A stretch of DNA of 64,000 nt, taken from assembly GCA_946555345.1 (NCBI GenBank), contig CAMNSS010000002.1, positions 62,001-126,000 on the forward strand, in the 5' to 3' direction. This DNA comes from an uncultured Eubacterium sp. (GTDB lineage Bacteria; Bacillota; Clostridia; Peptostreptococcales; Anaerovoracaceae). Below the pieces are notes generated by a model that was not told the origin of the DNA, did not search any database, and saw only the letters and a program-made list of their open reading frames with translations. The number at the start of each line of letters is the position of its first letter. Positions within the stretch are counted from its first letter, which is position 1. Of the stretch, positions 7,384-48,409 are shown in pieces. The translations under genes and the position numbers were made by a program.

Positions 7384-7472
7384 TTTCTCCTTTGCACAAT
7401 GGCAGGCAGCGAAATCGCTTTCGCTACCCTGACGTTTTCACCGGCATCGAGTGTCATGTGAAAATCGGAGTA
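7384..7472 (-). ncRNA. Moco/Tuco-like riboswitch upstream of ferredoxin-AOR
   Basis: Read on the minus strand, the leader contains CTCCGA, then GCCGGTG, a hairpin opened by GGGTAGC and closed by GCTGCCTGCC, and AAAGGAG, whose GGAG closes P1 with CTCC. P2 pairs TTTTCAC with GTGAAAA. The copy at 21.66 kb has the same length with P2 changed to TTCCTGC/GCAGGAA, and the P3 pair G-C changed to A-T: compensatory changes that directly support the fold. The conserved TCCGA..AAAGGA frame and the gene context (tungsten enzyme) match what I recall of the molybdenum/tungsten cofactor riboswitch class; the class name is recognition from memory, not a model hit. The output mechanism downstream is not clear. 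Confidence 0.75.
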
Positions 7473-21521: not shown

Positions 21522-21551
21522 TTGACAACACCCATGGTTTCAAAGTACAAT
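21522..21551 (+). promoter_or_regulatory. Strong promoter of a gene-less RNA
   Basis: TTGACA (21522-21527), 18-bp spacer, TACAAT (21546-21551). The transcript would run through the riboswitch at 21.66 kb to the terminator at 21.79 kb. Confidence 0.8.
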
Positions 21552-21557
21552 AAAGTG

Positions 21558-21791
21558 CAGAGGGCGGGGATTCATTGCTCATATATCTGACGCATATGCG
21601 TTCGCTCTGAATACATCAACTAAAAATATATGTTGCTGCGTCTGAGATTCAGCGATAAATTTCTCCGATTCCTGCACGACACCCGTTGCCGGCAGGAACG
21701 TTAGGGTAGCAGAAGCGATTTTGCTGCCTGCCATTGTGCGAAGGAGACTTGATTGTCCAATTATAAATCAAGCCTGACTGCGCACTTTTTT
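21558..21791 (+). ncRNA. Stand-alone transcript containing a Moco/Tuco-like riboswitch
   Basis: Predicted 234-nt RNA. A structured 5' part (for example CTGAAT/ATTCAG around 21607-21651) is followed by the aptamer at 21659-21750. That aptamer has TCTCCGA, P2 TTCCTGC/GCAGGAA, GCCGG, P3 GGTAGCA/TGCTGCC, CTGCCTGCC and AAGGAGA, with the same length and about 80% identity to the AOR-operon copy. The transcript ends in a terminator. No gene follows on this strand for more than 3 kb; the next gene is convergent. So this is either an orphan regulatory RNA or the leader of a lost gene. Confidence 0.75.
21736..21791 (+). terminator. Terminator of the stand-alone riboswitch RNA
   Basis: GTGCG...CTTGATT pairs with AATCAAG...CGCAC and is followed by six T. 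The GGAGA strand of aptamer P1 lies in the internal loop, so aptamer and terminator can influence each other. Confidence 0.78.
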
Positions 21792-21886
21792 ATTGTAATA
21801 AAAACGCAAAATTTTTACTCTGTTTGAGTTCACTTGTTTTGCGCTTTACTTGCTGATTGTTACATAGAAAAGTGCGCAGTCAGGCT
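21771..21886. repeat. 19-bp perfect inverted repeat flanking 78 bp
   Basis: AGCCTGACTGCGCACTTTT (21771-21789) recurs in reverse complement at 21868-21886, followed by further T. The left arm is the 3' half of the riboswitch terminator. The 78 bp between are AT-rich and non-coding. Confidence 0.85.
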
Positions 21887-22196
21887 TTTTCCTGCCTTGC
21901 CGCAAGCTCCAGCCGAAGCGGGCAGGGCGCTGGTTCATATCCGGCCATTTAAGTTCGTTTAGAAACGCTGCTCTTTATAAATTTTATCAAAGGCAATGGC
22001 TGAGATAGCGGCCAGAGCAAAATCCCGCATCCGCGCCTTGCCCTAAAGATGCCCGGAGCGGGCAATATCAACCAGGATAACCAGGCGGGAAAACGGTTCG
22101 GGTTACCAGATTCTTTTCCCTGCCCGCTTTCCAAAGGTTTCATTGCCGCCGGTTACATTTTTGCTATCCCCCTTTTTCCCCCCGCAAAGCCAATCA
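21887..22196. other. Intergenic, no gene seen
   Basis: About 310 bp of moderately GC-rich sequence (words such as GCGGGCA repeated) between the inverted repeat and the end of the dhaK-like gene. Nothing supportable. Confidence 0.4.
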
Positions 22197-23183
22197 CTAT
22201 GCGATGCTGAATACCATTTCCCCTTTTCGGGAAAGCAGTTCTTTCAGCTCATCATCCAGGCGGCAGATGCTGACCGATGCGCCGATCATCTCCATGGAGG
22301 TCGCAAATTCACCCAAAATCGCTTTCTGGATTTTCATTCCTTCCGCTTCCATGCACGCTTTCACATCTTTGTAGAGGATTGCCAGCTCTTCCCTGGACGT
22401 TCCGCCCAGCCCGTTAACCAGCACAGCGATTTCATCGAAATCATCCCGCTCCTTTACAAACTGCGCCACGATATCTTTGGCAATTTCTGCCGAAGTCTTT
22501 ACCGCAGAGCGGAATACGCCAGGCTCGCCATGGATGCCCATGCCCATTTCCATTTCCTCATCACCGATCTCAAAGATAGGTTTTGCCTGTCCCGGAAGCT
22601 GGCACGGTGAAAATGCAAAACCGACAGTATACGTCGCATCCACAGCCTTTTCGGCGATACGCTTTACTTCATCCAGGCTTGCGCCCTCTTCCGCCTTCGC
22701 ACCCGCCATTTTGTATGGAAAATAAATTCCTGCAATTCCCCTTCTGGCGTCCTTGTTTTCAGGCGGGGCGGAAAGGATATCGTCCGCCGCTTTTACAATT
22801 TCTGCACGGATATCATCCATTTCCAGCATATCCCTAGCCATTTCAAAGTTCATCGTATCGCCGAAATAATTGCCAAACAGAAACAGGCAGCCTTTTCCCG
22901 CATCCATTTCCTTTGCCGTTTCATAAATCGCCTCGCTCGATGGGGACGTAAACACATTGCCGACAGCGCAGCCATCCAGGAATCCTTCTCCCACGAATCC
23001 CGTAAAGGTCGGAAGATGCCCATAGCCGCCGCCCGAAATCACGGCGACCTTTTCCTTCTTCTGCACCCGCACGATCCCGCGCTCGCTTTCTGCGCAGAAT
23101 TTGATCTTATCTGCATGCGCCGCTACCAGCCCCTGCAAGCTATCATCTACAAACGTATCTGCGCTGTTCATTATTTTTTTCAT
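22197..23183 (-). CDS. DhaK-like dihydroxyacetone kinase substrate-binding subunit
   Basis: DhaK-family protein (about 328 aa from the ATG with GGGAG 10 nt upstream). The substrate-linking histidine is conserved in GMGIHGEPGVF, the His of the loop SGGGYGHLP and the Asp in NYFGDTMNFEMA are present, and FTSPSSEAI matches. Classic members read GGGSGHEP and NYSGD; the S/E to Y/L and S to F changes suggest a different ketose or sugar substrate. It follows a MerR-methyltransferase gene by 19 nt on the same strand; its DhaL counterpart is divergent about 2 kb away and no DhaM (EIIA-like) gene is in the window. Phosphoryl donor therefore unclear. Confidence 0.85.
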   Translation of the reverse strand: MKKIMNSADTFVDDSLQGLVAAHADKIKFCAESERGIVRVQKKEKVAVISGGGYGHLPTFTGFVGEGFLDGCAVGNVFTSPSSEAIYETAKEMDAGKGCLFLFGNYFGDTMNFEMARDMLEMDDIRAEIVKAADDILSAPPENKDARRGIAGIYFPYKMAGAKAEEGASLDEVKRIAEKAVDATYTVGFAFSPCQLPGQAKPIFEIGDEEMEMGMGIHGEPGVFRSAVKTSAEIAKDIVAQFVKERDDFDEIAVLVNGLGGTSREELAILYKDVKACMEAEGMKIQKAILGEFATSMEMIGASVSICRLDDELKELLSRKGEMVFSIA

Positions 23184-23202
23184 TCCGTTCATTCTCCCTT
23201 CA

Positions 23203-24231
23203 TTATTTTGCAATTTTATAAATAACCATATTCCGATCCGTAAATTCGGCGTCTACCTGCACCCTCCCCCGCAGCTTCAGATAGCCTTCTACCTCATCGG
23301 CATAGATGAAATATTCGGACTCCAGCAATTGCAGCCCTTCCGTATCGTTCTCCTGCTGCAAACGCTTTTTTACCGCTTCCTTTTCCGCTGCATTTTGGTA
23401 GCACCTGTCCGCAATCAGCACGCAGCCGCCCTCTTTGCAAAGCTTCATCATGTTGTCGATCGCTTTATATTGATCGGCCGGCGCGATATGATGGAGCGTG
23501 AAGGTGGATACCACCACGTCATACTGATCGGTCTCTTCCGGGGCTAAATCGAGAATGTCTCCCAGCCGCAGCTTTGCCCACGGAAGCTTTTTGCGGCTTT
23601 CCAGCAGCATCGGCAGGCTCATGTCAAGACCGGTCAGTTTCGTGCCAGCGTCGCTTTCCTGCCATAAATTGCACGTGCCGCACCCCACGTCAATAAAGCT
23701 CTTTCCCTTCATTTCGCCCAAGATTTCCTGCACTCTCCTGATCGTTTTCCGGTAAGGGACATCTTCTTTCAAATACCGGTTGATAAAATCCGAAGCGATG
23801 GCATCAAAATCCCATTCTTGCGCCAGATCGTCATAATTGATTTTCGTGTACCGCTTCTCCCGGTCAGTGAGGACGATCTGCGAAAACGACTCCCGATCGC
23901 CGCTTCCCAAAAATTTATTGATCGTCCCCCGCAGTTCGGTCTTTGTTCGCTGTAGCTGCCTGATCTGCGCATCCACAGCCTTGTACTGCAAGTAGAACAT
24001 ATCGAGCTGGTCATTCTTTGTCTTGTCAAACTCCAGGATGTCCTTGATTTCCATAATGGAAAACCCCAAGTGGCGCAAAATCGCAATGGTTTCGATTTCC
24101 ACGAGGTTTTCCGCTGTATATTCCCTATAATTGTTTTCCTTCCGCTTCGGCGCAATCAAGCCCTGTTCCTCATAAATGCGGAGCATTTTGGGCGTGACGG
24201 ACAGCTTTTGGCAAACCATTTTCGTGTTCAT
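23203..24231 (-). CDS. MerR-type regulator fused to a SAM methyltransferase
   Basis: Unusual two-domain protein, 342 aa. Residues 1-70 are a MerR winged helix (VCQKLSVTPKMLRIYEEQGL, then YREYTAENLVEIETIAILRH and FSIMEIKDILEFD), followed by the dimer coiled coil (about 75-120). From about 165 a class I methyltransferase begins: motif I FIDVGCGTCNLWQ, acidic loop LTGLDMS, VVVSTFTLHHI and GGCVLIADRCY. The effector sensed may thus be a methyl acceptor or SAM-related ligand bound by the enzyme-like domain. It lies in front of dhaK; MerR-type promoters with 19-bp spacers occur at 25.0, 38.8 and 58.3 kb and are candidate targets. Confidence 0.9.
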   Translation of the reverse strand: MNTKMVCQKLSVTPKMLRIYEEQGLIAPKRKENNYREYTAENLVEIETIAILRHLGFSIMEIKDILEFDKTKNDQLDMFYLQYKAVDAQIRQLQRTKTELRGTINKFLGSGDRESFSQIVLTDREKRYTKINYDDLAQEWDFDAIASDFINRYLKEDVPYRKTIRRVQEILGEMKGKSFIDVGCGTCNLWQESDAGTKLTGLDMSLPMLLESRKKLPWAKLRLGDILDLAPEETDQYDVVVSTFTLHHIAPADQYKAIDNMMKLCKEGGCVLIADRCYQNAAEKEAVKKRLQQENDTEGLQLLESEYFIYADEVEGYLKLRGRVQVDAEFTDRNMVIYKIAK

Positions 24232-25012
24232 AGATTTTCTCCAATCATCAATTTTTTATCATGTAAAATATCGCTGTAAGCGATATGGCAGCCCGCCCGG
24301 GATATTCATGGGATATTCGCGATCTGTCCTGGAAATCCAGCGGGCATTCGAGACTCATTATGAATATCCAGCGGGAATTTCAAAGGCGGCATAACAGCCC
24401 GCCCTCAGATTCAGAAACGCAACAAAGCTTGCCGATAAAAAGAATCGGGAAACCCGTCTTTATTCTGCGCTTCCCATTTACAGGCAAATGCAGATTCCGG
24501 CCATGCCTGCCAAAGTTATTTTACCACATTTTCACCAAAGCTTGCAGGGTCAGATTACACTTTGTCCTTAGGGCGAAGTCAACGCCCCAAATCAATGCGC
24601 CAATTATAGGCGATGTGGATGAGCTGGGACCAAAAAAATGAAAAAATCCAAAGAACCAGCCAATCCCCCACAACCAGTAAAAGAGACTCCATCAGCCGGC
24701 AGCCATAAAACGAACCAGCCAACAAAGCCTCCAGACGACAGCCGCCAACCAAAAAAAACTGGTTAACCGAAAAATCCGTCAGCTCAAGCTTGAACAGCCT
24801 GAACGCACGCCAGCCACAACAGCCAAACACCCAGATTGCAACAGACATTATCTTGCGAACAGCCTGAACGCACGCCAGCCAATGCCGAAAATCCCAGAAA
24901 GCACGCCAATCCAAGACTGAAATCACAGCAAAGCGACCAGCGAAACCAAAAAGACTGCCATCCCAATACCAAAACACCGAAAAAGCCGGCAACCGCTACA
25001 GGAAATCCCAGA
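24232..25012. other. Intergenic, repeats, no gene
   Basis: Divergent region between the MerR fusion and dhaL. Contains a shared palindrome (24268-24286, listed) and, from 24700 to 24920, degenerate repeats with GAACGCACGCCAGCC exact twice (about 24800 and 24868). Open frames here are repeat artefacts. Confidence 0.55.
24268..24286. repeat. Palindromic element C, copy 1
   Basis: ATATCGCTGTAAGCGATAT. On the minus strand it is embedded in GCCATATCGCTTACAGCGAT and followed by TACATGATAAAAA. The copy at 62458-62476 has the same core with TACAAGATAAAAA, so a longer unit is shared. Confidence 0.8.
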
Positions 25013-25043
25013 TTGACACTGCCGTTAGGGCTGGGACTATGAT
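25013..25043 (+). promoter_or_regulatory. 19-bp-spacer (MerR-type) promoter of dhaL
   Basis: TTGACA (25013-25018) and TATGAT (25038-25043) are 19 bp apart, the overlong spacing corrected by MerR-family activators. The sequence after the -35 (CTGCC...GGG) resembles the promoters at 58.27 and 38.79 kb. Confidence 0.65.
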
Positions 25044-25153
25044 ATCATATAAGCACTGGCTACCTTGCAGACAAGAATTAACTTACCAGGTAATGATTGC
25101 TCTAAAATAATTCTTCAAATAATTTTTACGCTTTATTGCAAAGGAGGAACTTC

Positions 25154-25765
25154 ATGTATACAACGCTGGAAATTAAAAAGACGCTCGAAAAAATAGCACA
25201 ACAGATAAAGATGCAGGAAACACTTCTAGCAGAGCTTGATGGGCTGTCCGGCGACGGCGACCTGGGAATTACTGCAGTGAAACTATCAGAGGCGCTCGAA
25301 AAAATGGCGCAAAGCGATATCACTGACCTTGGAATGCTTTTCATGAAAACAGGGATGGAAATGAATAAGCAAGCGCCTTCTACCATGGGGACACTGCTGG
25401 CGGCAGGCGTAATGTCGCTCGGCAAGCAATTCAAGGGACAAACTGACCTGGCAGATGAAGATCTTGCGGCGATTCCCCAGCTTCTCGCAGAGGAAATCAA
25501 AAAACGCGGAAAAGCCAGCCTCGGGGACAAGACCATTCTCGATGCGCTTATCCCGATGGCAGATGCGGTGCGTGAAACCTTTGCCGAAACAGGCGATATC
25601 AAAGAAGCCTACCGCAAAGGTGCAAATGCCGCAGAAACCGGGGCAGGGCAGACGCGCGGCATGATCGCCAAGACAGGCCGGGCAAGCTGGATTGCGGACA
25701 GGACAAAAGACAATCTGGACGGCGGAGCAGTCCTGTGCGCCAAAATCGCAGAGCTTTGCAAATAA
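25154..25765 (+). CDS. DhaL-like nucleotide-binding kinase subunit
   Basis: DhaL-family all-helical domain, 203 aa from the ATG 6 nt after AAGGAGG. The Mg/ADP-binding loop reads SGDGDLGIT where the usual form is GDGDHGIN, so the aspartates persist but His is Leu. The second loop is APSTMGTLLAAG instead of GGASG(P/A)LYG. LGDKTILDALIPMADAV and GAGQTRGMIAKTGRASWIAD match the family well. With the divergent dhaK-like gene it could form a two-part kinase of atypical substrate. Downstream EamA transporter is separated by a terminator. Confidence 0.87.
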   Translation: MYTTLEIKKTLEKIAQQIKMQETLLAELDGLSGDGDLGITAVKLSEALEKMAQSDITDLGMLFMKTGMEMNKQAPSTMGTLLAAGVMSLGKQFKGQTDLADEDLAAIPQLLAEEIKKRGKASLGDKTILDALIPMADAVRETFAETGDIKEAYRKGANAAETGAGQTRGMIAKTGRASWIADRTKDNLDGGAVLCAKIAELCK

Positions 25766-25800
25766 CGGAAATAGCCGGCATTTAGCGGGAATGGCCAACG

Positions 25801-25825
25801 CTCCGCTCGGCGAGCGGAGGTTTTA
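25801..25825 (+). terminator. Terminator after dhaL
   Basis: CTCCGCTC GGC GAGCGGAG stem followed by GTTTTAT. Confidence 0.75.
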
Positions 25826-25894
25826 TCTTTCAGCCAGCGGCAGGCCTGCGCTTTGCATAACAATATTTCACGACAACTACAGCAGGTATATCAA

Positions 25895-26848
25895 ATGACT
25901 ACATTAAATGCAAAAGACCCGATACTAAACCCGAAAGCCATTGTCTTCGTCAATGTGCTTTTCACTTCATGCAATTCCATATTTTTTAAGCTGTCCACCG
26001 TCCCGGCGATGGTATTCGTCAGCTACCGCTTTTTCCTGTGTGCGCTGGTATTCTTTGGCGTTCTCTCCATCAGGGCGGTTTCTGCAAAGCGCAAACTCCT
26101 GGAAATCGAACCAAAGCGGTTTGCCGCGCTCTTTGTCATCGGCTTTATCTTTTCCTTTGGCGCTTACGTCTACTTTATCGCACTCAAAAAGACAGCGCTT
26201 TCCAGCGTGCTGATTTTAACCAGCAGTATGTCCATATTTGTAGTGCTGTTCTCGTTCCTGTTCTTAAAAGAAAAAATTGCGCCGCGAAGCTTTTTTGCGA
26301 TACTTCTGGCCTTTATCGGCTGCATTATCGTCGTCATGACAAAAACCAACGGCCTCGCAAACTCCATGACAGGCAATATCTGCGCTTTGCTGTGCGCCAT
26401 TTGCTCGGCCATCTACATGGTTTCCATGAAAAAGTTTTCCGATGTGCCTGTGCCGGCTAAGCTTTTTGCCGTATATATTGGAAGTTTTGTATTCGCATTT
26501 ATCGTCGCCATGATCCAAGGCCACTCCTTTTTCGCATTTGAAGACGGGGCGTTTTTCCCGCCAAGGGAATATCTGTGGGTATTCTGCTCGGCAGTCCTGT
26601 CGGTATGCATCCCGCAAGGGATCATCAACTGGGCGTTAAAATGGGTCAAGGCAACCTTCGTGGGGAGCATTTCGCTTCTAGAGCCGATTATCGGGACTTT
26701 TTATGGTTTTCTGATCTGGTCGGAAAGCGTCAGCATCAATCAGGTGATTGGCGGCGTCTGCGTCATTGGCGGGCTTTATTTGTACAACTTGAGCGAGCTG
26801 AAAGCCAAAGAGCGGGAAAGGGAAAAGCCATGCGAAATGAAACAGTAA
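25895..26848 (+). CDS. EamA/DMT-family transporter
   Basis: Inner-membrane drug/metabolite transporter of about 317 aa with ten predicted membrane helices in two EamA repeats (for example LFVIGFIFSFGAYVYFIALK and VFCSAVLSVCIPQGIINWAL; the end of repeat one reads LKEKIAPRSFFAILLAFIGC). The start at 25895 (MTTLNAKDP) is preferred over an upstream ATG because a weak CAGGT site precedes it. Substrate unknown. The tail is Lys/Glu-rich. It stands alone between a terminator and a repeat-rich gap. Confidence 0.85.
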   Translation: MTTLNAKDPILNPKAIVFVNVLFTSCNSIFFKLSTVPAMVFVSYRFFLCALVFFGVLSIRAVSAKRKLLEIEPKRFAALFVIGFIFSFGAYVYFIALKKTALSSVLILTSSMSIFVVLFSFLFLKEKIAPRSFFAILLAFIGCIIVVMTKTNGLANSMTGNICALLCAICSAIYMVSMKKFSDVPVPAKLFAVYIGSFVFAFIVAMIQGHSFFAFEDGAFFPPREYLWVFCSAVLSVCIPQGIINWALKWVKATFVGSISLLEPIIGTFYGFLIWSESVSINQVIGGVCVIGGLYLYNLSELKAKEREREKPCEMKQ

Positions 26849-27694
26849 ATGGAGAAACGAATCAGCGGAATCGAGCCGGCGATAACGAAACGCACAGGAA
26901 GCATTCAAACAGGACAAGCAAAAAGAAGGCCGCAAACAGGGAATCAGTAAAGCCGCACAGCACGAGCTAAAATCGGGGAATCAATGAAACTGCACAGTAT
27001 GCGCTGAAACTAAAAAATTGATGAACCCACACGGCTCAAATCGAAAATCGGAGAATCAATGAAGCCGCGCAGTATGCGCTGAAACTGAAAAATTGATGAA
27101 CCCACATGGCTCAAATCGAAAATGGAGAATCAATGAACCCCCACAGTATGTGCAGAAATCGTAGCATCGAGGGAACTGTGCGATATCCCCAGAATTAAAC
27201 ACGGCTTGAAAAACAGCATTGCATACTCAATAAAAACGATAACCGCACTGGTAATTTTAAACTTTTTATTATATAGTAAATAATAAAGATATGATCCGCA
27301 AACAAGCACAATGCGACGGAAGCCCATTGATGAAAAGCTCTAATGCGCAGAGAGCCAGGCAGCAAGCCACTGGCAAAAGCCAGCCAGAAAAAACCAGCCA
27401 GAAAGCCATTGGCGAAACCGGCTGCAACGAGCCAACGGCCGCAAACGAAGCGCCAGCAAGACTTGCCGCAAAGAACCAGCGCATAAATCCATTGGCGAAA
27501 AAACCGAATGCATAAATCCAGCGACAGCAAAAACGGTGGCAAAACCTGCCACAGCGAGTTAGCGGCAAACGGGAACATTTGCATGGAAGCATTCGCGCGC
27601 TTTGCGGAATTTGAGGCTAGCCCTCAAAAAATCCTATCAAACGGTTAATAAAAGCCAGCTTTATTATGATTAAAAAAGAAAAGAGGTGCTTATT
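26849..27694. other. Intergenic repeat region, no gene
   Basis: About 850 bp without a gene. It holds a 75-bp tandem repeat (listed), then Ala/Gln/Asn-codon-like repeats at 27300-27550 (AGCCAGCCAGAAAA, GCCATTGGCGAAA words). An inverted repeat TTTGAGG/CCTCAAA (about 27610-27628) lies shortly before the amidohydrolase gene and may be regulatory. Confidence 0.55.
26941..27165 (+). repeat. Tandem repeat, about 75-bp period
   Basis: Units beginning GAATCAATGAA start at 26978, 27053 and 27127 (periods 75 and 74); a half-unit begins at 26941, 37 bp earlier. Each contains GCGCTGAAACT and AAATTGATGAACCCACA. Confidence 0.85.
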
Positions 27695-29320
27695 ATGAAC
27701 GCAGAAAAGGTATTTACAAACGGTAAAATTTACACGGTCAACGAGAACAGGGACTGGGCAGAGGCCGTGGCCATCGATAGCGGAAAGATCGTATTCGTGG
27801 GGAGCAATGCGGACGCCAAGGATTATATCGGCGAATCGACTGAGGTTGTCGATCTGCAAGGCAAGATGATGCTCCCCGGATTCATGGACGGGCATTGCCA
27901 TCCTGTCCTTGCCGCCTATTACACGTCCGGCATTTATCTTGAAATCGACTACGACCTGGAAACCTGCCTGGCGGAAATCCGCAAATACGTAAGCGAGCAT
28001 CCTGAGAAAGAAACGTATTTCGGGCTGGGTTATGCGGAGTGGCTCTTCGATGAAAAAGGCCCGAAAAAGGAAATGCTGGATGAAATCTGCGCCGATAAAC
28101 CGATGCTGATGGTCGGAAGCGGCGGCCACGAGGGCTGGGCGAACACCAAGGCGCTGGAAATGGCTGGCATCACGAAGGATACTGCTGATCCAATCCCTGG
28201 ATTCCAATACTATGGACGCGATGCGCAAGGAAACCCTTCCGGCCATCTGATGGAAACGATTCCGCTGCTGTCCGTCATGGGCGAGCTGCCGTTCTTCGAT
28301 GATAGCGTAATCAAAGGACTGCTTGCGGAAATCTCCGCAGGGTATGCGGCGATGGGCGTTACTGCCGTTGCCGACATGGGAATTTTCCGCTCTATGGCAG
28401 ATAAGAGCATCACCATGATGAAAGATGCCATCGACAGCGGAGCATTCGCCCAGCGGTTCACAGGATGCGGCGGCATTATAGAATCCGACGACGCCATTGA
28501 AGAACATCTCGACCATTTGGTCTCTTTGCATGAAAAATACGATGATGACAGATTCCGCATCAGCTTCGTAAAAATCATCAACGACGGCACGCTCGAAAGC
28601 AGATCTGCCGCTCTCACGACACCATACTGCGAAGACGGTTCTGTAGTAGAAACGATGATTAGCGGCGACAGGCTGGCAGAAATCGGCCTTATGTCCGCGA
28701 AAAGAGGCCTTGATATGCATATCCATGCGCTGGGCGACGCTTCCGCCAGGGAATCGCTCAAGATGATGAAGGCGATCAGGGAAGCTGGATACAGTGATAT
28801 GCGTGTCACCAACGCCCATACACAAATGGTTTTGCCAGAAGACAGGCCGCTCTTTGGCAAATATGACCTGATTGCCAACACCACCAACGTATGGCATTAC
28901 GGCAACCCGGACATGATTCCTGTCATTGGCGAACGGGCAGACGATACGTTCACATTAAAATCGATCATCGACGGCGGCGCAAAACTCTCCCTTGGAAGTG
29001 ATTTCCCGGTTGACGAGTACGGCAGGGAGCCGCTCAAAGGCATCGAAATGGGCGTTACCAGACAGCTCTACGACAAGCCGGATTCGCCTGTGTTAAAACC
29101 GGAATCGGAAAAACTTTCCGTAGATGACTGCATCGCAGGCTATACCATCAATATCGCTTACCAGCTCCATGTGGAAGACAGGCTAGGCTCTATCGAAAAA
29201 GGCAAATATGCGGATCTCGTTATCCTGGAAAAAAATCTTTTCGATATCCCGGCTGCGGAAATCCACAAGGTCAAGGTATGTGAAACCATCGTCGAAGGAA
29301 AGACGATATACCAGGCTTAA
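27695..29320 (+). CDS. YtcJ-like metal-dependent amidohydrolase 1
   Basis: Amidohydrolase_3 family enzyme, 541 aa, start after AAGAGGTG. The beta-sandwich N-terminus reads KVFTNGKIYTVNENRDWAEA; metal ligands are DGHCHP (about 63), KIINDGTLESRSA (Lys site), HIHALGDAS, THAQ-type NAHTQM, and GSDFPVDEYG. The tail SIEKGKYADLVILEKNLFDI is typical. Such enzymes hydrolyse amide or related bonds of mostly unknown substrates. Paralogous to the genes at 36.8-38.5 and 58.8-60.4 kb. The last codons and stop lie in a 30-bp sequence repeated downstream at 29440. Confidence 0.9.
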   Translation: MNAEKVFTNGKIYTVNENRDWAEAVAIDSGKIVFVGSNADAKDYIGESTEVVDLQGKMMLPGFMDGHCHPVLAAYYTSGIYLEIDYDLETCLAEIRKYVSEHPEKETYFGLGYAEWLFDEKGPKKEMLDEICADKPMLMVGSGGHEGWANTKALEMAGITKDTADPIPGFQYYGRDAQGNPSGHLMETIPLLSVMGELPFFDDSVIKGLLAEISAGYAAMGVTAVADMGIFRSMADKSITMMKDAIDSGAFAQRFTGCGGIIESDDAIEEHLDHLVSLHEKYDDDRFRISFVKIINDGTLESRSAALTTPYCEDGSVVETMISGDRLAEIGLMSAKRGLDMHIHALGDASARESLKMMKAIREAGYSDMRVTNAHTQMVLPEDRPLFGKYDLIANTTNVWHYGNPDMIPVIGERADDTFTLKSIIDGGAKLSLGSDFPVDEYGREPLKGIEMGVTRQLYDKPDSPVLKPESEKLSVDDCIAGYTINIAYQLHVEDRLGSIEKGKYADLVILEKNLFDIPAAEIHKVKVCETIVEGKTIYQA

Positions 29321-29469
29321 CAAATGTTTGGCTTGCCAGCATCAGGTGTAACTTGCTGATTCCAGTTGCAGCTTGCGGATAGGCCTCGGCTGCGGCTTTC
29401 TGTGCCGTCCTTTTGTCCGCATCAAAAGAAAGACCGTAGCCAGGCTTAACAAATGTTTGGCTTGCCAGC
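29311..29469 (+). repeat. 30-bp direct repeat copying the end of the amidohydrolase gene
   Basis: The 30 bp at 29311-29340, which span the final codons and stop of amidohydrolase 1, recur exactly at 29440-29469; the preceding AAAGAC is also shared. Intervening sequence has further GCTTGC(C/G)-type repeats. Confidence 0.88.
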
Positions 29470-29715
29470 GCTAGTTGCGGCTTGCCACGGTTCGACGATA
29501 CCATAAGCACGCAAGCTCTGTATAATTTACTATTTTCACTGCAAAATGCAGAGTTTATGGAAACCGGCGACTGCTGCGTAGTTGATTGGCAAAAAGGTTT
29601 TTATCTATTTGCTCATTATTAAGATTTATTTCATGCTCATTTGCTGATTCGCAAGAGAATCCATCAAAGAATAATCGATTTCTTGCCTGTTTAATCAAGA
29701 CGAGTGAAGAATAAC

Positions 29716-29764
29716 AAAAAACTCTGCATAAATGCGGTAAAAATCTTTATTTATGCAGAGTTTT
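29716..29764. terminator. Perfect 17-bp terminator-like hairpin
   Basis: AAAAACTCTGCATAAAT (29716-29732) pairs fully with 29748-29764 and is followed by T; A/T runs on both sides make it usable in both directions. Confidence 0.75.
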
Positions 29765-29912
29765 TGATATTTTTTCAGATAGCTGCACATATGTTATGTC
29801 TCATGCCATCACCTTTCTCTTGTGCGCCGTCCATATAGCGAGTGGTTTCTTTATTTGTTATGTCGTGCGTTCACATTCTCAACCATTCTCAACCGGCTTG
29901 ACGCCGCACAGC

Positions 29913-29958
29913 AAAAGCGCCCTTAGCCATGGAACCTTATCCACAACCAAGGGCGCTT
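29913..29958 (-). terminator. Terminator after the APC permease
   Basis: On the minus strand AAGCGCCCTT pairs with AAGGGCGCTT and is followed by TTTGC; it lies about 120 bp beyond the permease stop. Confidence 0.6.
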
Positions 29959-30076
29959 CCAATTAATTCATCCAGAATCAATCCATCGAGAATCAATCTG
30001 CCAAAAAGCAACCTCCCGGAAATCGATTCATCCGGACAAAACACATACCGCAGACCTTTGCATAAAGCGCAGAGGC

Positions 30077-31723
30077 CTATTCCTTTTCGATCGGATCAAC
30101 CTTCTTGCCAACCAGCCAAAGGATAACCCCGGCAACCATCATCACAACGCCGGCCCAGCGAGCAATGTTAATCATTGCCCAGAAGTTGCTCATGATGCCG
30201 GAGCCATACGTTTCCAGATAGTATTCAGGTCCCCATGAGCCTTCGTACCATACCAGGAAGAACGAACCGAGGAATGCGATCACGCCAAATAAAACCAAGA
30301 AGTTTCCAAACCTGCAAATATCGCCCACAGCCAGCTTTGTCTTCGGGTTGATCGGATACTGTTCGGGATCGCGCTTGTAAAAGCCGCCGTAAACCAGTTT
30401 GAAGATAATATAGAATATGATCGTCGTTACGATGGCGATGAAGCCAAGCAGGAAGTATTCCGTTCCGTTTACCAAAAATCCGATAATGCCCAGAAGCAAC
30501 GGACCGCCACAGATGTAAATCTCTGCCCATTTGCCGCCCTTTACATAATAGAGATCTCCTCTCAATTCCACCGGATACATTCTCCTGAGCTTTACAAATG
30601 CGAAAGCCAGGCCTACATACAGCACGAAAAGCAACGGCGAAAGAATCGTAACCAGTATTTCAAAGTTCATGTTTACCAGAACCAGGTTCAACGCTGCCAG
30701 GATCAAAATCGGCCAAACCGGCACTTTGCTCTTTTTCGTCAGCTTGGACAGGAACTTCGGACACAGATGGTCGTCAGCCAGCACCATAAAGGATCTGGAC
30801 GCCGAGGTGATTGCCGCATTGAAAATCGCACACTGCCCGATTACCGCTACCACCATAAACGCCATGCCTGCCGCCGCCCCAACGTGTTCCGTCAGCACAG
30901 TTGAATAGTCGATGGAAGTTCCCCATTCATACCATGGTCCTGTCGATACGATGCCTCCCAGCGTAGGGATTATGTAGCTGAGCGCAATGATCAGGATTCC
31001 CAGCTTCATGCCCTTCGGCAGGATTTCAGGATTTTCCAGCTCTCCTCCCAGGAAAGATATCGCAATATAGCCACAGTACATCCAAATGCCGACCGCAATG
31101 CCAACGCCCCAGCTGGATAATGCATCCGAACCCTCTGGAATGAACGGGTCAAACGGGCTGTACTGCCAGTTAGCAAAACCGACAAACGCCACTGCCGCAA
31201 ATGCAATCAAGATGATAATGCTGAAGATGGTGCTCGCTATGCTTACCTCCTCCAGCCCCATTAGGTTGATGATCGTAAAGATAATGATGATTGCCGCTTT
31301 TAGCGCAAAGGCCAAGGCAGGCGTCATCGGGAAAAACATTCCCAGGTAATCCACCGCTAGCACAACATATGCTGCGCCTGTCAGGTAATTTGCCAGGATA
31401 ATCCACCATCCCATAGAGAAGCCCCAAAACTCGCCGAATGCCATCTTCGTCCAGACATACGGACCGGATTCTACCGGAGCCAAGTTTGACAGTTCCGAGG
31501 AATAAAGGCCGATTGGCAGCCCCCACAGGATCGGAATCAGAACCAGAAGCACCAATGTAAGCCCCGGACCGGATGATGAAATCATCGATTCGATTCCGAA
31601 TGCACCTCCAGCACACGCACAATAGATAAAGAAGGTCATCGTCAACAGCGAGAAACGCTTCTTTTTCAGACCGGGGATATGGTCCGTCAGGACCTGCCCG
31701 CCGGTATACTTAGGTTGAGCCAT
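30077..31723 (-). CDS. APC-superfamily amino acid permease
   Basis: Membrane transporter of 548 aa with about 12-14 helices. N-terminal GGAFGIESMISSSGPGLTLV is the conserved first helix of APC proteins, and GPYVWTKMAFGEFWGFSMGWW matches helix 3 of that family. The start at MAQPKYTGG is chosen because AAGGAG lies 7 nt upstream. It sits between amidohydrolase 1 and a cysteine-desulfidase-type gene, so it may import the amide or amino acid degraded nearby. A terminator follows. Confidence 0.9.
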   Translation of the reverse strand: MAQPKYTGGQVLTDHIPGLKKKRFSLLTMTFFIYCACAGGAFGIESMISSSGPGLTLVLLVLIPILWGLPIGLYSSELSNLAPVESGPYVWTKMAFGEFWGFSMGWWIILANYLTGAAYVVLAVDYLGMFFPMTPALAFALKAAIIIIFTIINLMGLEEVSIASTIFSIIILIAFAAVAFVGFANWQYSPFDPFIPEGSDALSSWGVGIAVGIWMYCGYIAISFLGGELENPEILPKGMKLGILIIALSYIIPTLGGIVSTGPWYEWGTSIDYSTVLTEHVGAAAGMAFMVVAVIGQCAIFNAAITSASRSFMVLADDHLCPKFLSKLTKKSKVPVWPILILAALNLVLVNMNFEILVTILSPLLFVLYVGLAFAFVKLRRMYPVELRGDLYYVKGGKWAEIYICGGPLLLGIIGFLVNGTEYFLLGFIAIVTTIIFYIIFKLVYGGFYKRDPEQYPINPKTKLAVGDICRFGNFLVLFGVIAFLGSFFLVWYEGSWGPEYYLETYGSGIMSNFWAMINIARWAGVVMMVAGVILWLVGKKVDPIEKE

Positions 31724-33577
31724 TTTTACTCTCCTTTCTCTCAAGATAGCCTTGCCGTTCTTGGCAGGCTAAAACAATAAGTAACAATAACGGTATAAAA
31801 TAACATATTAATTATAGTCTTTTCAGCCAAAAACGCAACCATTTATTTACGACAAACGAATTTTTTCATCTTGACAATGGCAAAAAATGATTTATTTAGA
31901 ACATCGGCCTTTTCCAGCGGGACTGGCGGAGGTTAACCGAAAGGCAATGCAAATAGGGCAGAGTGCAAGCAAAAGCAAAATCGGCACAAGGCCTGTAAGC
32001 AAAAACAGCACAAAGTTTGCGCAAGGTGGTACAAATAGGACGGACCGCAAAATTTGAAGATGCAGTTCCTTCAAGCAAAAATCACATCTCATTAATATTT
32101 CACCGTTTAAGCAAGCATCGGGTGGCGAAACGGTGAAGCACAGCTCATGGAAAGAACAGGGATAACGGCAGGCAGGCACAAAACGCACCGACAACGCAAA
32201 AGTTTCACCGTTTTATGGGATAAAATCAAGCAAAACGGTGAAACACACATTACGGAAAGAATAAATTTAACGCCGGGCAAACACTGCTCATATCAAGTTT
32301 CACTGTTTGGCCGCCCAAAACAGCCAAATATCCTATACTTCCAACTCCAATTAAAAACATAGCAGATTGAACTCATGCCACCTATTAACAACCATTCACC
32401 ATTTTTGCACAGCCAGGGCAAAATAGCGCAGGCTTCTAAATGTTCACCGTTTTCAGCAATCCTCTTTTTCCGCACTTCTATTAAAAAAGAGTGACAAGCG
32501 GTCTTTTCAATGCAATTACTACTCTCTTTTCAAGGATTCTAACCGCTGAGCCTTTACCTTATAGAAAAAATAGCTTTCATGACGGCACACAGACAGCCAC
32601 AATCCTTGAAAACAAAGCAGCAGTTACCCGAAATACTGCATTTGCTGCTCAAAAATCATATCTTACAACTCATGCAAAAGTTTCGTTCTCCTTTCCAAGA
32701 ACACTTGCTAATCGCTTCCCTGATTACCAAAAGCCAACAATTCCATCTCATTGGCCAGCGAACGCAACCGTACCATCAGCCATTGCTTCGCTCAATTAAC
32801 AAACGAGACTTTTCCAGGCCACACTTTATTCGACCAACGAACACAACCGCTTCTAAACCATCACTTCATTCAGCCAGCAAACACAACAATCTCGAAAGCT
32901 TCCACGCCAGCTAATACGATGCCTGAATTTGATGCCGCTTTAGAAAATGCCCTAAGAAAAGCTTACCCCCTCATCCCTCCCGAAATTCATTATAATCGAA
33001 ATATTGCCGCAAGAACAGTACGGCAACAATTCCGCCATAAAACTGGTGCGAGCCTGGGCAAAAGCCATGCCACAGGCACACACCCACACCATGCACCCCC
33101 CCAATAAAAACATCCCTTGCAAGCCCCACAGCCATATGTGTATTCTCTCATATTTTCTAAAAATTTCATTTCCAGAGAAAACACACAAACCCCATGCATT
33201 AGCCGGGCATTTCCACGATTACCAAGAGCAAATTCTCTGGAAAATTTTTTAAAAACGCAGTTAAGAGAGAACCACCATCCCCCACCAAAAATTCTCTGAA
33301 ATGAAAAACTTTCAATCCAAATAAGAGAAAACGGGCAGCCTTTGCACGAAAAAGCCTAAAAAGCAGCCCGAAATTCCCTCAAAACCCTTTCCTATTGGCA
33401 AAACCGGAAAATCAATAACCGCCAATCAGACAAACACCATCACAACCCGCCTCAGCCCTTCCATTGCCAGCCATATGCGGCCCGTCCCAGCTCTTCTGCC
33501 GCAGCTCTCCCCGCGCGCCATTTCACTTCTACCGTTCTTCCGCATCGTGCGTCGCACTTAATATCATCCGCCCAACC
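31724..33577. other. Gene-free 1.85 kb with hairpin elements
   Basis: No supported gene. Upstream end carries the permease promoter region. 32098-32243 holds two element A hairpins (listed), with a single arm near 32443. From 32490 to 33460 the sequence is A/C-rich with recurring CCAGAGAA/AATTCTCTGG words (33174, 33230, 33290); open frames are C- and A-rich artefacts. Confidence 0.55.
32098..32243. repeat. Hairpin element A, copies 3 and 4
   Basis: Copy 3: TTTCACCGTTT (32098-32108) with AAACGGTGAA (32128-32137). Copy 4: TTTCACCGTTTT (32203-32214) with AAAACGGTGAAA (32232-32243), a perfect 12-bp inverted repeat. A lone TTCACCGTTTT lies at 32443. Confidence 0.85.
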
Positions 33578-34846
33578 TCATTTATTCAGCAAAATATCAA
33601 TGATTACCCCATCCATGCTCGCAAGCCCTTCTTTGGAAGTCCTGACGAAATAATCAATCGTATCGTCCTCCCCTTTGCCAACGATGCCGTTGGTGCTTTC
33701 AAGGCCAAACCCATCCAGCGCCAGATCAGCGGACATACACGCCGCATTGATGCAAGTAGCGGTTTTCAGCGCACAGCTAGCCTTTGCACCATCGCAGACC
33801 ATGCCCGCCAAATTGCCAAACATATTCTTTACCGCATTAAGCATCTCTGCCTTCCGCCCGCCTTGCAGGTATACAATGCCGCAAGAAGAACCTGTCCCAG
33901 CTACCACACAGCCGCACACCGTGGAAAGCGCACCGATCTTGTGTTTAATGTAAATGCTTACAAGACAGCTCAACGCTGTGGCGCGCACCGTTTCTTCCCA
34001 AGGAGAACCCAGCGCTTTCGCTGCGCCATATACAGGCATCGTGCACACGATCCCTTGGTTGCCGCTTCCCGTATTGCTCATCGCAGGCAGCTCACATCCA
34101 GACATTCTGGCGTCCACGCCAGCGGCGGACCACATCATTGCGCTGTAAGAAAGGTTGTCCGTGCAGTTGTGCGCCATGCGGTCACGGATTCGCTGTCCTG
34201 CGTTCGCACCGAAATCCCGCGAAAGGCCAGCCTCAGCAAGCGCCTCATTCATTTTCAGTCCATCCTGGATAATCTTCATATTGTCCAGCGGTGCATTTTC
34301 CGCAAAATCAATAATATGATCCAGCTTCAAGAGGTCATACCGATACCCCTCATCGCCTGCATCGCCATCCGCTGACAGAATCACCTCACCGTTTACAACG
34401 ATTTTCACGATGTTGGTATATCCATCCTGCAAAACCACCGTCACTTCATCCTGATCCGTCGCCAAACGGATCTCCATGTAAAGGGCAATGCCATTATCTG
34501 CAATCGATACATGGAGCTTGCCCGATTTTTCCAACTGAATCGCCTTCTGCACCTGTGCCTCGGTAATCCCCTGCAAAACCTCGAGCTTTTTATCGGCGTC
34601 GCCACAGGTAACGCCGAGAGCCGTCGCAATGGAAACGCCGCACAAGCCGCCGCTTCCAGGGATCACGACCGCAATCGCATTCTTAACCAGCTTGCCGGAA
34701 AAGATCGCCTCAATTTGTTGAATTTCTCCTCGCGCATACTTTCTAGCTGTTGCAGCACAGTACGCAATCCCGATCGGATCGGTACAGCCCAGCGCTGGCA
34801 TCATTTCATGATTTAATATTTTGTCAAATTCTCTGTACATCATCAT
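33578..34846 (-). CDS. L-cysteine desulfidase/CyuA-type (UPF0597) protein
   Basis: About 420-aa iron-sulfur protein of the CyuA/UPF0597 family, related to serine dehydratase alpha subunits; characterised members break down L-cysteine to pyruvate, ammonia and sulfide. Family marks: PALGCTDPIGIAYCAATAR at the N-terminus, IPGSGGLCGVSIATALG, GANAGQRIRDRMAHNCTDN, MSNTGSGNQGIVCTMPV, and cluster-type cysteines in TVCGCVVAGTGSSCG and GMVCDGAKASC. Three adjacent ATG codons (34840-34846) make the exact start uncertain. It ends a run of minus-strand genes with an ATC-hydrolase-family protein and an M20 amidohydrolase, suggesting the cysteine they would release is its substrate. Confidence 0.88.
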   Translation of the reverse strand: MMMYREFDKILNHEMMPALGCTDPIGIAYCAATARKYARGEIQQIEAIFSGKLVKNAIAVVIPGSGGLCGVSIATALGVTCGDADKKLEVLQGITEAQVQKAIQLEKSGKLHVSIADNGIALYMEIRLATDQDEVTVVLQDGYTNIVKIVVNGEVILSADGDAGDEGYRYDLLKLDHIIDFAENAPLDNMKIIQDGLKMNEALAEAGLSRDFGANAGQRIRDRMAHNCTDNLSYSAMMWSAAGVDARMSGCELPAMSNTGSGNQGIVCTMPVYGAAKALGSPWEETVRATALSCLVSIYIKHKIGALSTVCGCVVAGTGSSCGIVYLQGGRKAEMLNAVKNMFGNLAGMVCDGAKASCALKTATCINAACMSADLALDGFGLESTNGIVGKGEDDTIDYFVRTSKEGLASMDGVIIDILLNK

Positions 34847-35029
34847 CTAACCCTTCTTTTTATGTCAAATTTTCATCCAAGGACAAAAGTATATGGCGAA
34901 ACCGAAAATTTCTATGCACATATGCCGCTCATGAATGAGCGCCGCTCCGCAAACGCCGCCCGGTTTCCGCCAGCGGCTTTGCCCCGTCCGCCGTCCAGTT
35001 CCTGCAAATATCTCCGCCTTAACAAACGC

Positions 35030-35539
35030 TTATTTTTTCTTGGAAAACCTGATGCGGCAAACATCGTCACCTTCTGCAATCTTCTTGTCGATTACGAAAT
35101 CAAAACCGATTTTTTCGGCGATTCCCCTATCTCCATCCATTGCGATATCGCAGAGATGCTCGATATCCTCCGTCGAAGCGCCCAGCTTCTGCCATGCCGT
35201 AATCAGCGGGCAATAGTGGAAATCAAGCGTCAAATTATCCGGCGTCTTTTCAACCTGTTCAACCTCCAGAACCTTTTCCGTCTGCGATCCGATGAACGCA
35301 TCATAGAACTTCGTCATATCCTGGTATTCTGGGCATGGCTCCATAATCTTCTTTTCCCCGTGGAAAAGCCCGCAGCACTTGATCGCTTCCCTAGCGAAAT
35401 CATCCCACTCAAGCCCTCTCTTGCGAGCCTCGTCCAAAAGCAAATAAAACCAGCTTGCCCTATGCTCGATTCCTGCCCGCAGCGAAGTTGTCGTCACATC
35501 GTCCAAATACTTTGTCGCTTCATTTTTAATGTCTGCCAT
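35030..35539 (-). CDS. L-2-amino-thiazoline-4-carboxylate hydrolase-family protein
   Basis: A 169-aa protein resembling the ATC hydrolase family (AtcB of Pseudomonas opens the thiazoline ring of ATC to N-carbamoyl-L-cysteine). Recognisable are the helical N-terminus (RAGIEHRASWFYLLLDEARK), IKCCGLFHGEK, and the C-terminal half LDFHYCPLITAWQKLGAS, EHLCDIAMDGDRGIAEKIG. The start at 35539 has AGGAGG 7 nt upstream. Neighbours are an M20 amidohydrolase (as AtcC is) and a cysteine desulfidase. Many family members in gut anaerobes are uncharacterised, so the substrate could differ. Confidence 0.78.
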   Translation of the reverse strand: MADIKNEATKYLDDVTTTSLRAGIEHRASWFYLLLDEARKRGLEWDDFAREAIKCCGLFHGEKKIMEPCPEYQDMTKFYDAFIGSQTEKVLEVEQVEKTPDNLTLDFHYCPLITAWQKLGASTEDIEHLCDIAMDGDRGIAEKIGFDFVIDKKIAEGDDVCRIRFSKKK

Positions 35540-35716
35540 GTCAATTCCTCCTGATTCATTTTTCCAATCGTAATAAAACACTTTATTTTGTGATTTGATT
35601 CTATACCCTGCCCTAAAGTTTGGGTCAATAGGGAAGATTTTAAAACATTTCGCCGCAACGGCATATGCAAAACGCTCGTCTCGTCTGCCTAGTGCGCCAT
35701 GAGCCAGCAAAACGCC

Positions 35717-36838
35717 TCAAAAATTCTCAATAATAGAAATATACGCCTCCAGCCCTTTCACAAGGATGTCTTCATTAAAATCAAACCGTTCAGAATGCAA
35801 CGCAATATCGTTTCCCGTCCCCAGCATAAACATAACGCAGGGAACACGAAGCCCGTAAAATGCGAAGTCCTCTGAAATCAGAAGCGGCTCGGCAAGCTCC
35901 GTAAGCGATAGGAAATCCAGCGACTTGTAAAGCGCAGGATCGTTGCACAAAATCGGATACCCTTCCGTATATTCGATGGAAAATTTTGCTCCGAGCCGTG
36001 CCTCGGCTTCCTCTGCCGCCTCCTGCACAAGCGCCTGAACCTTTTCAAATCGTTCATCCTCAAACGCACGGATCGTCCCGTCAATGCGGGCGGCGTCCGG
36101 GATGATATTGAACGCCGCCCCGCTGTTTAAAACGCCTGCGCAAAAAATCGTCTTTTCTTCCGCCGCCTTCACCGTCTCTATCAGCGCATCGTGCTTTGCA
36201 TACGCCCTGTCCACGAACCTGCAAGCGGCATGAAGTGCGTTGATTCCCTTTTCAGGCGCAGTCGCATGAGCCGATTTTCCCTTAACCTGCACCAGCATTT
36301 TCGTAAAGCGGGACATGAGGACGCCAGGCCTTGACCCGATTTCACCTGCAGAAAGGAATGGCCAGAGGTGAATGCCAAAAACCGCCTTCGTATTATGCCG
36401 CTCCAAAATGCCGCTTTCGCACAGTTCTTTTCCGCCTCTTGCGCCGCCCGACTCCTCTGCGGGCTGGAACATGAGCAGGATATTATAATGCAAATCATGG
36501 TCGTTCACGTATTTGGCAAGCCCCAGCAGCATCGCCATATGCCCATCGTGGCCACAGGCGTGCATTTTTCCCTCATGCTGCGATTTGTACGGCACCTCAT
36601 TGCACTCTGTAATCGGCAGCGCATCCATATCGGTACGAAACGCCAGCGTGCTGTCCGCGCCCTTATCGAAAAATGCACAGAGACCCGTTTCACAATGCTC
36701 TGTAATCTCACAGCCATACCCGCCGATCGCCTGCATGATATAATCCTTCGTCTTGTAAAGCGCCCGGTCCAGCTCAGGGATTTGATGCAAAGCCCTGCGG
36801 TGCGCACGGAGCGTTTCGGTATATCCAGCTATGCCCAT
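35717..36838 (-). CDS. M20-family amidohydrolase (N-acyl/N-carbamoyl amino acid)
   Basis: Metal-dependent M20D aminoacylase, 373 aa from the ATG with AAAGGAAG 7 nt upstream, 4 nt after amidohydrolase 2. Metal ligands lie in MHACGHDGHMAMLLGLA (about 94) and MFQPAEESGGARGG (Glu pair near 130), with the dimerisation domain (KGKSAHATAPEKGINALHAA) and LLISEDFAFYG at the end. Hippurate hydrolase, N-acetyl-amino-acid deacetylase or N-carbamoyl-cysteine amidohydrolase are all possible; the next gene favours the last. Confidence 0.88.
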   Translation of the reverse strand: MGIAGYTETLRAHRRALHQIPELDRALYKTKDYIMQAIGGYGCEITEHCETGLCAFFDKGADSTLAFRTDMDALPITECNEVPYKSQHEGKMHACGHDGHMAMLLGLAKYVNDHDLHYNILLMFQPAEESGGARGGKELCESGILERHNTKAVFGIHLWPFLSAGEIGSRPGVLMSRFTKMLVQVKGKSAHATAPEKGINALHAACRFVDRAYAKHDALIETVKAAEEKTIFCAGVLNSGAAFNIIPDAARIDGTIRAFEDERFEKVQALVQEAAEEAEARLGAKFSIEYTEGYPILCNDPALYKSLDFLSLTELAEPLLISEDFAFYGLRVPCVMFMLGTGNDIALHSERFDFNEDILVKGLEAYISIIENF

Positions 36839-36842
36839 AGCA

Positions 36843-38465: not shown

Positions 38466-38878
38466 GACAAACACCTCATTTCAAAATAAATTCATTTATC
38501 ATTTTAACGGCTCAATATATTATATCATGAATACCCTTTCACCGGCATTCATGATTCGATGAACGCTTCCTTGCGCTGGCGCCGTTAGAATGCCCCGCGT
38601 TCATTATGCCATGAATTTTTCTGCCTTTTCACCAGCGTTCATGGCTCAATGAACGCCCCTGCGGCAATGCCGTATCAACAAATACGTTCATCATGCCATG
38701 AAGATATCGTATGTCCTTGGGGCTGGGTCAAGATACCGGTGTCAAAATCAAAAGAAAAATAATAAAATTCAGAAAATGCTCTTGCTTTCTATTGACTTTG
38801 CCCATGGGGCATAGTGTAGAGTGACACCGTGCAATAAATCAATTACTCATCATGAATTACAAAGCAAAGGAGGTTATT
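38466..38878. promoter_or_regulatory. Divergent control region with four TTCAT-N6-ATGAA palindromes
   Basis: Between amidohydrolase 2 and the symporter. TTCATNNNNNNATGAA occurs at 38548-38563, 38600-38615, 38638-38653 and 38687-38702. On the minus strand TATAAT (about 38520) lies before the amidohydrolase. The symporter promoter is listed separately. The four copies may be operators or another degenerate repeat family. Confidence 0.6.
38792..38822 (+). promoter_or_regulatory. 19-bp-spacer promoter of the GPH symporter
   Basis: TTGACT (38792-38797) and TAGAGT (38817-38822) separated by 19 bp with the dyad TGCCC ATG GGGCA in the spacer, as in MerR-family operators. Similar to the promoters at 25.01 and 58.27 kb. 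Confidence 0.6.
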
Positions 38879-40357: not shown

Positions 40358-40599
40358 GCATACGCCTTACATAGCCTAATATCATCGTATGGAAACATGA
40401 CGATGAATGACTTGAAAAGGACATCTCGAAAATGAACGGCTCGAGCGGATGACTTGAAATGAATGGCTTGGGGCGAGCAACTCGAAAGAAACTGATCGAG
40501 ATGAATGATTCGAGGCGAGCGGACCGAGGCGAATGACCGAAAATGAACGACTGAAAATGATTATCTAAAAATTGCGTAATTCATTGAAATTGCATACGG

Positions 40600-40643
40600 A
40601 CAAAGCTGGCTTCTCCGGTTCTCTGTCAGAGGCAGGCTTTGTT
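40600..40643. repeat. Hairpin element B, copy 1
   Basis: ACAAAGCTGGCTTCTCC ... GAGGCAGGCTTTGTT. Related copies at 48410-48445, 48467-48507 and 62374-62416. Confidence 0.75.
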
Positions 40644-40681
40644 GAGGGGAAGCGGCTCATCACCGCTTCCCCGTACCGCCG

Positions 40682-40716
40682 AAAACCCGGAAGGGCGATT
40701 GCCCATCCGGGTTTTT
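40682..40716 (+). terminator. Terminator after the GPH symporter
   Basis: AAAACCCGG...CCGGGTTTTT with inner GGGC/GCCC pairing and T-run. Confidence 0.8.
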
Positions 40717-40838
40717 ACTTTTAATCACAACGCCAAAAACCTGCAACGGCCATCCCGAAACGGAATTATGCGTTCCGTAATCAGAAATCCACTATTCCTA
40801 TGGACACTTCCATAGAAAAACCTTCTCCTAATCCTGCC

Positions 40839-47407: not shown

Positions 47408-47578
47408 ATATTGATCCCTGTGGCTTCGATTACTTATGATCTGCTTAATACCTATTTGTTTTATACTTCCCTTCGAGCGAAGGGCGGGTCATGCAAAGAG
47501 GCAGGTTGTGCAAACGGCCGCTTTTACAATGAAAAGCGCTACGGCCTCCAATACCTTTCCCTCTTTTCTTGCTACCGT

Positions 47579-48385: not shown

Positions 48386-48409
48386 TTGTTACATTCTCCT
48401 TTTTTGAAT

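Follow-up and report, generated by a model that had tools for sequence, protein, structure and literature searches.

The question raised by this locus is why a riboswitch leader equipped with promoter, aptamer and terminator should have no gene behind it. The leader lies in a window, that is, the whole stretch of 64,000 nucleotides analyzed here, from an uncultured Eubacterium sp., and its promoter, 5' segment, aptamer, terminator T1 and hairpin T2 together span positions 21522-21890 (Table 1). The next genes 3' of it, a Dak1-domain gene (22197-23213) and a MerR/methyltransferase gene (23203-24231), are encoded on the minus strand; no same-strand gene is evident behind the leader for 3.2 kb, and the next plausible plus-strand gene is found near 25.15 kb. 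An earlier note on this DNA had described a TTGACA-18-TACAAT promoter, a terminator ending the RNA, and the absence of a same-strand gene for more than 3 kb with a convergent gene next, and these descriptions hold. Promoter sites of the TTGACA/-10 type are not uncommon by chance (mean of 1.3 in shuffled sequences). The extra structured domain of about 100 nt that the note had placed ahead of the aptamer finds no support, since the 5' segment folds no better than shuffled sequences (z -0.69); in addition, an Rfam search of this segment at E<=5 revealed no second known aptamer.

Table 1. Positions of the leader elements, of the proposed target and of compared features in the window. G numbers here and in the text denote related genomes.
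Feature	Position	Strand	Basis or remark
Leader promoter TTGACA-18-TACAAT	21522..21551	+	11/12 matches; TTGACA/-10 pair at the same site in relatives
5' segment ahead of the aptamer	21552..21661	+	110 nt; 35 nt in G127
Compact Moco/Tuco-type aptamer	21662..21748	+	Model R1, 104.2 bits; three helices covary
Terminator T1 and U-run	21736..21791	+	5' arm is the aptamer 3' strand (GGAG side of P1); read from sequence and fold
Hairpin T2 and U5	21770..21890	+	Arms 21770-21793 and 21864-21887; z -9.8
Antisense block 1, T2 loop	21818..21836	+	Complementary to XDH UTR into the Shine-Dalgarno
Antisense block 2, T2 loop	21844..21861	+	18 nt, perfect complement of XDH 5' UTR
Stretch separating the halves of the ancestral leader-XDH junction	21891..57960		Alignment to G127
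XDH-type molybdenum hydroxylase, 956 aa, proposed target	54934..57804	-	Pfam MoCoBD_1, MoCoBD_2, Fer2, Fer2_2, Ald_Xan_dh_C
Target of antisense block 1, XDH mRNA leader	57811..57829	-	Duplex prediction
Target of antisense block 2, XDH mRNA leader	57842..57859	-	Sequence match and duplex prediction
XDH's own promoter TTGACA-18-TAAAAT	57884..57913	-	Read from sequence; similar in G127, G221
Ferredoxin-AOR leader aptamer, for comparison	7385..7471	-	87 nt; Rfam RF01055, 39.5 bits

Of the 197 family genomes searched at the DNA level, 15 contained matches to the leader, as did 20 of the 49 genus genomes (this genome in both counts). Besides the orphan, 37 leaders were collected, including the window's own AOR leader and with two tandem pairs counted twice. 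An AOR-type gene, or ferredoxin and AOR, follows 28 of them and an XDH-type gene six, and the remaining three precede a secreted-looking protein, an uncharacterized ORF and, at the cut-off used, no ORF until the contig end, respectively; downstream genes in relatives were named by their first residues, Pfam having been run on window proteins only. A third leader of this kind in the window (9067-9195, plus strand) bears a strong Moco/Tuco aptamer (75.8 bits) ahead of a tungstate-type transporter operon, which we take to be tup.

The orphan aptamer closely resembles that of the AOR leader, as the earlier note had proposed: both are 87 nt long, and the compensatory P2 change from TTTTCAC/GTGAAAA (AOR) to TTCCTGC/GCAGGAA (orphan) is seen in the sequence. 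Two-sided changes among 16 leaders keep P1, P2 and a long third stem paired, the third helix of this covariation alignment being the long last stem and not the P3 discussed by Regulski et al. (2008). Aptamer model R1, built from 36 related aptamers including the orphan (36 of 37 were used, with L015 left out), gave 43 matches in 22 of the 49 genus genomes. The orphan ranked first among them (104.2 bits), a score that tells only that its aptamer has not decayed, since it belongs to the training set. In contrast to the AOR and tup leaders (39.5 and 75.8 bits), the orphan was not matched by the Rfam model RF01055 at E<=5 and thus does not reach the gathering cut-off. At E<=1, this model matched 10 of the 20 loci given, with scores of 32.3-41.8 (tup aside) against a cut-off of 36, and L001, L007, L008 and L009 gave no match. 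The orphan can be aligned in core and helices with Rfam-positive leaders, for example L002, L013, L016 and L023, which argues for membership in the class, and 34 of the 37 related leaders precede AOR- or XDH-type genes, the usual Mo/W setting that the orphan lacks in its own genome.

As to the subtype, the short Rfam stem is deleted in all three alignments shown (the orphan is not among these), and only five unpaired columns separate helices 2 and 3 in alignment A2. The P3 stem of Regulski et al. thus appears to be absent, as in the Tuco subtype, if the deleted Rfam stem is equated with that P3, which is our own reading. The portion of Regulski et al. (2008; PMC2408646) drawn on here links the tungsten cofactor to the compact aptamer variant without the extra stem, and because the orphan aptamer is of the compact type, its ligand is presumably the tungsten cofactor. 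Compact aptamers also occur in tandem upstream of AOR2, with a T1-like terminator after each, in L027 (G212) and L029 (G214).

What became of the gene is answered by comparison with relatives. G127 has the gene order AOR, tupABC, leader, XDH, oxidoreductase, modABC and moeA, with the leader directly before XDH; the tup, mod, moe and oxidoreductase names are our assumption, made by reading. The two XDH proteins are 95% identical across 443 aa. In the present genome, the XDH-to-moeA block lies at about 44.8-57.96 kb, inverted relative to G127. Leader homology to the G127 locus ends at base 1742, and homology of the XDH upstream region (57701-57960) begins at base 1759; therefore, the leader and the XDH promoter region were once neighbors and have been split by a rearrangement. 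Both breakpoints fall within one contig of the assembly, and the event, which separates the leader from XDH by 36 kb, would most simply be an inversion. Loss of the gene was rejected, as the XDH ortholog sits in the same window (54934-57804). The earlier note had considered a leader whose gene was recently lost and had suggested comparing the locus in relatives, where a Mo/W gene directly downstream, deleted here, would have told against an orphan RNA. Such a gene does directly follow in relatives, for example XDH in G127, but here it has been relocated by 36 kb and not deleted.

The surroundings of the breakpoints show further peculiarities. The interval between tupC and the leader, about 80 bp in G127, holds in this genome an MspI-type restriction gene, a methyltransferase-like gene and a two-component/ABC module; the restriction endonuclease (assigned by Pfam) and the convergent cytosine-methyltransferase-like gene (assigned by reading) occupy 12881-15493. 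Near the XDH-side breakpoint, a tandem repeat with a 69-nt shift and 93.5% identity is located at 58047-58212. An invertible promoter between repeats is disfavored, because G190 retains the 18-bp match described below over a distance of about 2.6 kb and because neither breakpoint here falls within the repeats.

Two structures follow the aptamer. T1 was absent from the output of a simple terminator scan and was found by reading and folding; its fold is present in all 16 T2-type leaders, and in all 16, P1 and T1 have one strand in common. Because T1 takes the strand that closes P1, ligand binding should block termination. T2 folds far beyond shuffled sequences (z -9.8 for 21770-21895), with an outer stem of 18 pairs in which 94.8% of alignment cells are paired. 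It is kept in 16 genus genomes, as found with one pattern across 196 loci (16 distinct), a search in which 13 of the 43 aptamer-model matches had no locus of their own and were covered only where reached via other loci. The T2 core is predicted to be unpaired (0.68-0.94, compared with a whole-T2 mean of 0.22-0.33) in 16 of 16, and five U directly behind T2 are found in this genome only (one of 16). A mobile element, suggested by the 24-nt inverted repeat 21770-21793/21864-21887, was rejected, since a search at E<=0.001 gave no further copy, and relatives share the left arm, which forms the 3' strand of T1. T2 leaders also occur upstream of genes for secreted-looking proteins, not AOR or XDH, in L028 (G218) and L087 (G211).

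The T2 loop contains two blocks complementary to the 5' UTR of XDH. Block 2 pairs at 18 of 18 positions, and block 1, with a 19-nt duplex that includes two G-U pairs and a single mismatch, covers the Shine-Dalgarno GGAG. Exact copies of a 16-mer from block 2 are limited to two places in the 2.85-Mb assembly, T2 and the XDH UTR. The duplex between the T2 inner region and its own XDH UTR is predicted at -50.6 kcal/mol (z -7.9), with none of 300 shuffles as good, so that complementarity here exceeds chance. Among 12,784 overlapping stretches on both strands of the 64-kb window, to which this comparison is limited, no target besides T2 itself scores better than the XDH UTR (-52.4, next -44.4). A widespread operator was rejected as the source of the motif: besides the two exact copies, three more sites with two mismatches were found, compared with two for the reversed control.

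Among the 16 genomes, at most five of 300 shuffles were as good as the real loop in eight, and pairing was near chance in the other eight (10 to 150 of 300). The z values of the own T2/UTR pairings were -11.2 in G127, -9.0 in G221, -4.1 in G238, -3.6 in G210, -3.5 in G190, -3.4 in G209 and -2.4 in G207. Own pairs averaged -30.9 kcal/mol and permuted pairs -23.4 kcal/mol across the 16 genomes, a difference matched in none of 20,000 permutations. Own pairs also beat permuted ones within the five closest genomes (p 0.008, the lowest value attainable with only 120 assignments), and in two other genome groups they were no better than cross pairs (p 0.84 and 0.24). Paired changes were identified at two neighboring block 2 positions in G127 (within the five closest genomes), at the final block 2 position when this genome is compared with G190/G210, and, as read from the duplexes, at two block 1 positions between this genome and G127/G221; pair-breaking changes also occur in G127 and G221.

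Of the genomes with T2, 15 of 16 carry the UTR motif, compared with 5 of 17 that lack T2 (Fisher p 2.3e-4, indicative only, since the motif was picked after the sequences had been seen and the genomes are related). This count covers 33 of the 42 genomes in which XDH was matched; G204 was dropped because of too short an upstream sequence, and XDH is on the contig in part, with its first 19, 25 and 59 residues, in G202, G214 and G238, respectively. The exception with T2 but without the motif is G214, and the five with the motif in which no T2 leader was found are G220, G197, G222, G223 and G232, some of whose assemblies are incomplete. XDH upstream regions without the motif bear a terminator-like stem and U-run in L045 (G240) and L046 (G239), and the aptamer model also matches ahead of XDH in G239 (44.4 bits). 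A second, paralogous XDH in L096 (G190) and L094 (G210) also has CAGCAAGTAA in its 5' UTR, so that a single T2 RNA might act on both XDH genes.

The aptamer, T1, T2, the complementarity and the rearrangement are read directly from the sequence. The explanation that we consider most likely, with confidence somewhat above even, is a (tungsten-)cofactor-gated antisense RNA that lowers XDH, here in trans. Without ligand, the polymerase would halt at T1 and yield an RNA of only about 235 nt. With the cofactor bound, P1 would hold the strand required by T1, and read-through would produce an RNA of about 335 nt ending at T2 with its five U. The unpaired T2 core would then pair with the XDH 5' UTR over 18 bp and extend toward the Shine-Dalgarno (19 nt), pairing that should reduce XDH translation and result in less XDH synthesis. 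Such lowering would fit the suggestion, found in the portion of Regulski et al. (PMC2408646) drawn on here, that two RNAs preceding Moco enzymes of S. wolfei repress upon a rise in tungsten cofactor. The leader would ancestrally have stood in front of XDH until a rearrangement parted the two, and because an antisense RNA is able to work in trans, the orphan's function may have outlasted the split. Genomes that have only block 2, far upstream of the start codon, would require a different route, for example RNA cleavage, and in G190 and G210 transcription past T2 would continue into AOR2. The ligand, the read-through, duplex formation in the cell and the repression are what we infer, and the cofactor-gated antisense mechanism is plausible but unproven. 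Of the possibilities listed in the earlier note, a cofactor-sensing small RNA is thus the one favored, its transcription being presumed from the sequence; the reason for favoring it, the T2 loop antisense to the XDH 5' UTR, is not one that the note had given. No sign of the sponge that the note had also listed came up in these comparisons.

Whether the RNA acts in cis or in trans can be approached through gene order. Leader and XDH directly adjoin on one strand in 7 of the 16 T2-type genomes (G127, G221, G206, G209, G207, G201 and G202), including the two with the strongest pairings, G127 and G221; they share a strand with a gene between them in two (G190 and G238), lie on opposite strands in six (G218, G212, G217, G211, G214 and this genome) and are on different contigs in one (G210). 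Where they lie on opposite strands, a cis-only mechanism is excluded. However, strong pairing among these six is seen in this genome only; in the other five, 11 to 150 of 300 shuffles were as good, four having a short shared core and G214 no UTR motif. Because these five all pair weakly, strong pairing where only trans action is available is limited to this genome, which weakens the trans reading and raises the alternative of a cis element turned relic. On that account, the complementarity served within a read-through leader-XDH transcript, and the leader is now stranded and functionless. It is also favored by the promoter that XDH retains here and by the 36-kb split, which is found in one genome only, so that upkeep after the split stays presumptive. 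On the other hand, promoter, aptamer, T1, T2 and the perfect 18-bp block are all intact here, opposite-strand genomes still keep T2, and in G190, where AOR2 and not XDH follows the leader, all 18 positions of block 2 remain paired at about 2.6 kb. We therefore regard a relic as rather unlikely, yet as an alternative to be taken seriously.

A pair of DNA operators, in which a single DNA-binding protein recognizes one non-palindromic site present both within T2 and behind the XDH promoter, would account for the motif in both places and for the five genomes with a UTR motif in which no T2 leader was found; it is improbable given the mere two exact 16-mer copies in the assembly, the arrangement of the complementarity in two blocks with G-U pairs (this genome, G127 and G221), and paired changes that differ between genomes with 95% identical XDH. 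A neutral inverted duplication, in which template switching between neighboring repeats keeps the copies alike and RNA pairing is not selected, suits the G127 arms, only 151 and 202 bp apart, but is likewise improbable, as 18 of 18 positions pair despite distances of about 2.6 kb (G190) and 36 kb (here) and the T2 core is predicted to be unpaired in 16 of 16.

Compared with the Moco RNA motif/Tuco class (RF01055; PMC2408646, as far as the portion drawn on here extends), the cofactor-gated antisense RNA proposed here shares a core alignable with Rfam-accepted leaders, a terminator platform and, in relatives, a position before AOR/XDH genes, and it has no room for the extra stem missing from the tungsten-linked variant, the Rfam helix assignment being our own reading. 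It differs in being unscored by Rfam, in the antisense hairpin behind the terminator and in having no gene following it here. Riboswitch RNAs with effects past their own downstream gene are exemplified in Listeria by AspocR, SreA and Rli55 (PMC8079631), and those trans-acting examples that the part of this review drawn on here covers respond to SAM or B12. AspocR is a B12 riboswitch-controlled antisense RNA for which the review reports trans action; as proposed for the orphan, aptamer and terminator determine whether the antisense RNA is made. However, read-through of AspocR takes place in the absence of ligand, and its transcription runs antisense to the target gene, whereas the orphan should read through with ligand and its antisense part is a loop with an 18 + 19 nt match to a distant gene. 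SreA and SreB, SAM riboswitches, act on prfA in trans, SreA as a terminated short RNA, whereas the orphan would act as the read-through product. Rli55, under a B12 riboswitch, is likewise a noncoding RNA of two lengths, but sequesters the protein EutV, whereas the orphan's target would be an mRNA. Antisense-acting riboswitches, with MOCO riboswitches among the candidates, have been proposed (Serrano-Gutierrez and Merino, 2023; PMC9943018); in the portion of that work drawn on here, they lie at the target gene 3' end and run antisense to it, in contrast to the orphan RNA, which does not overlap its target. In the literature searched (titles and abstract openings, mostly outside subscription journals), no trans-acting Moco/Tuco RNA was described.

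We advance the fuller proposal tentatively, as somewhat short of an even chance: that a tungsten-cofactor riboswitch makes, only with ligand, an antisense RNA silencing the molybdenum enzyme XDH in trans, a switch trading molybdenum for tungsten enzymes that would still work after the rearrangement. If true, the Moco/Tuco class would join the trans-acting riboswitch RNAs, with the regulatory role falling to the read-through and not to the terminated product, and the cell's choice between tungsten and molybdenum enzymes would have a direct mechanism. A natural rearrangement has already separated the RNA from its target, which makes this model testable.
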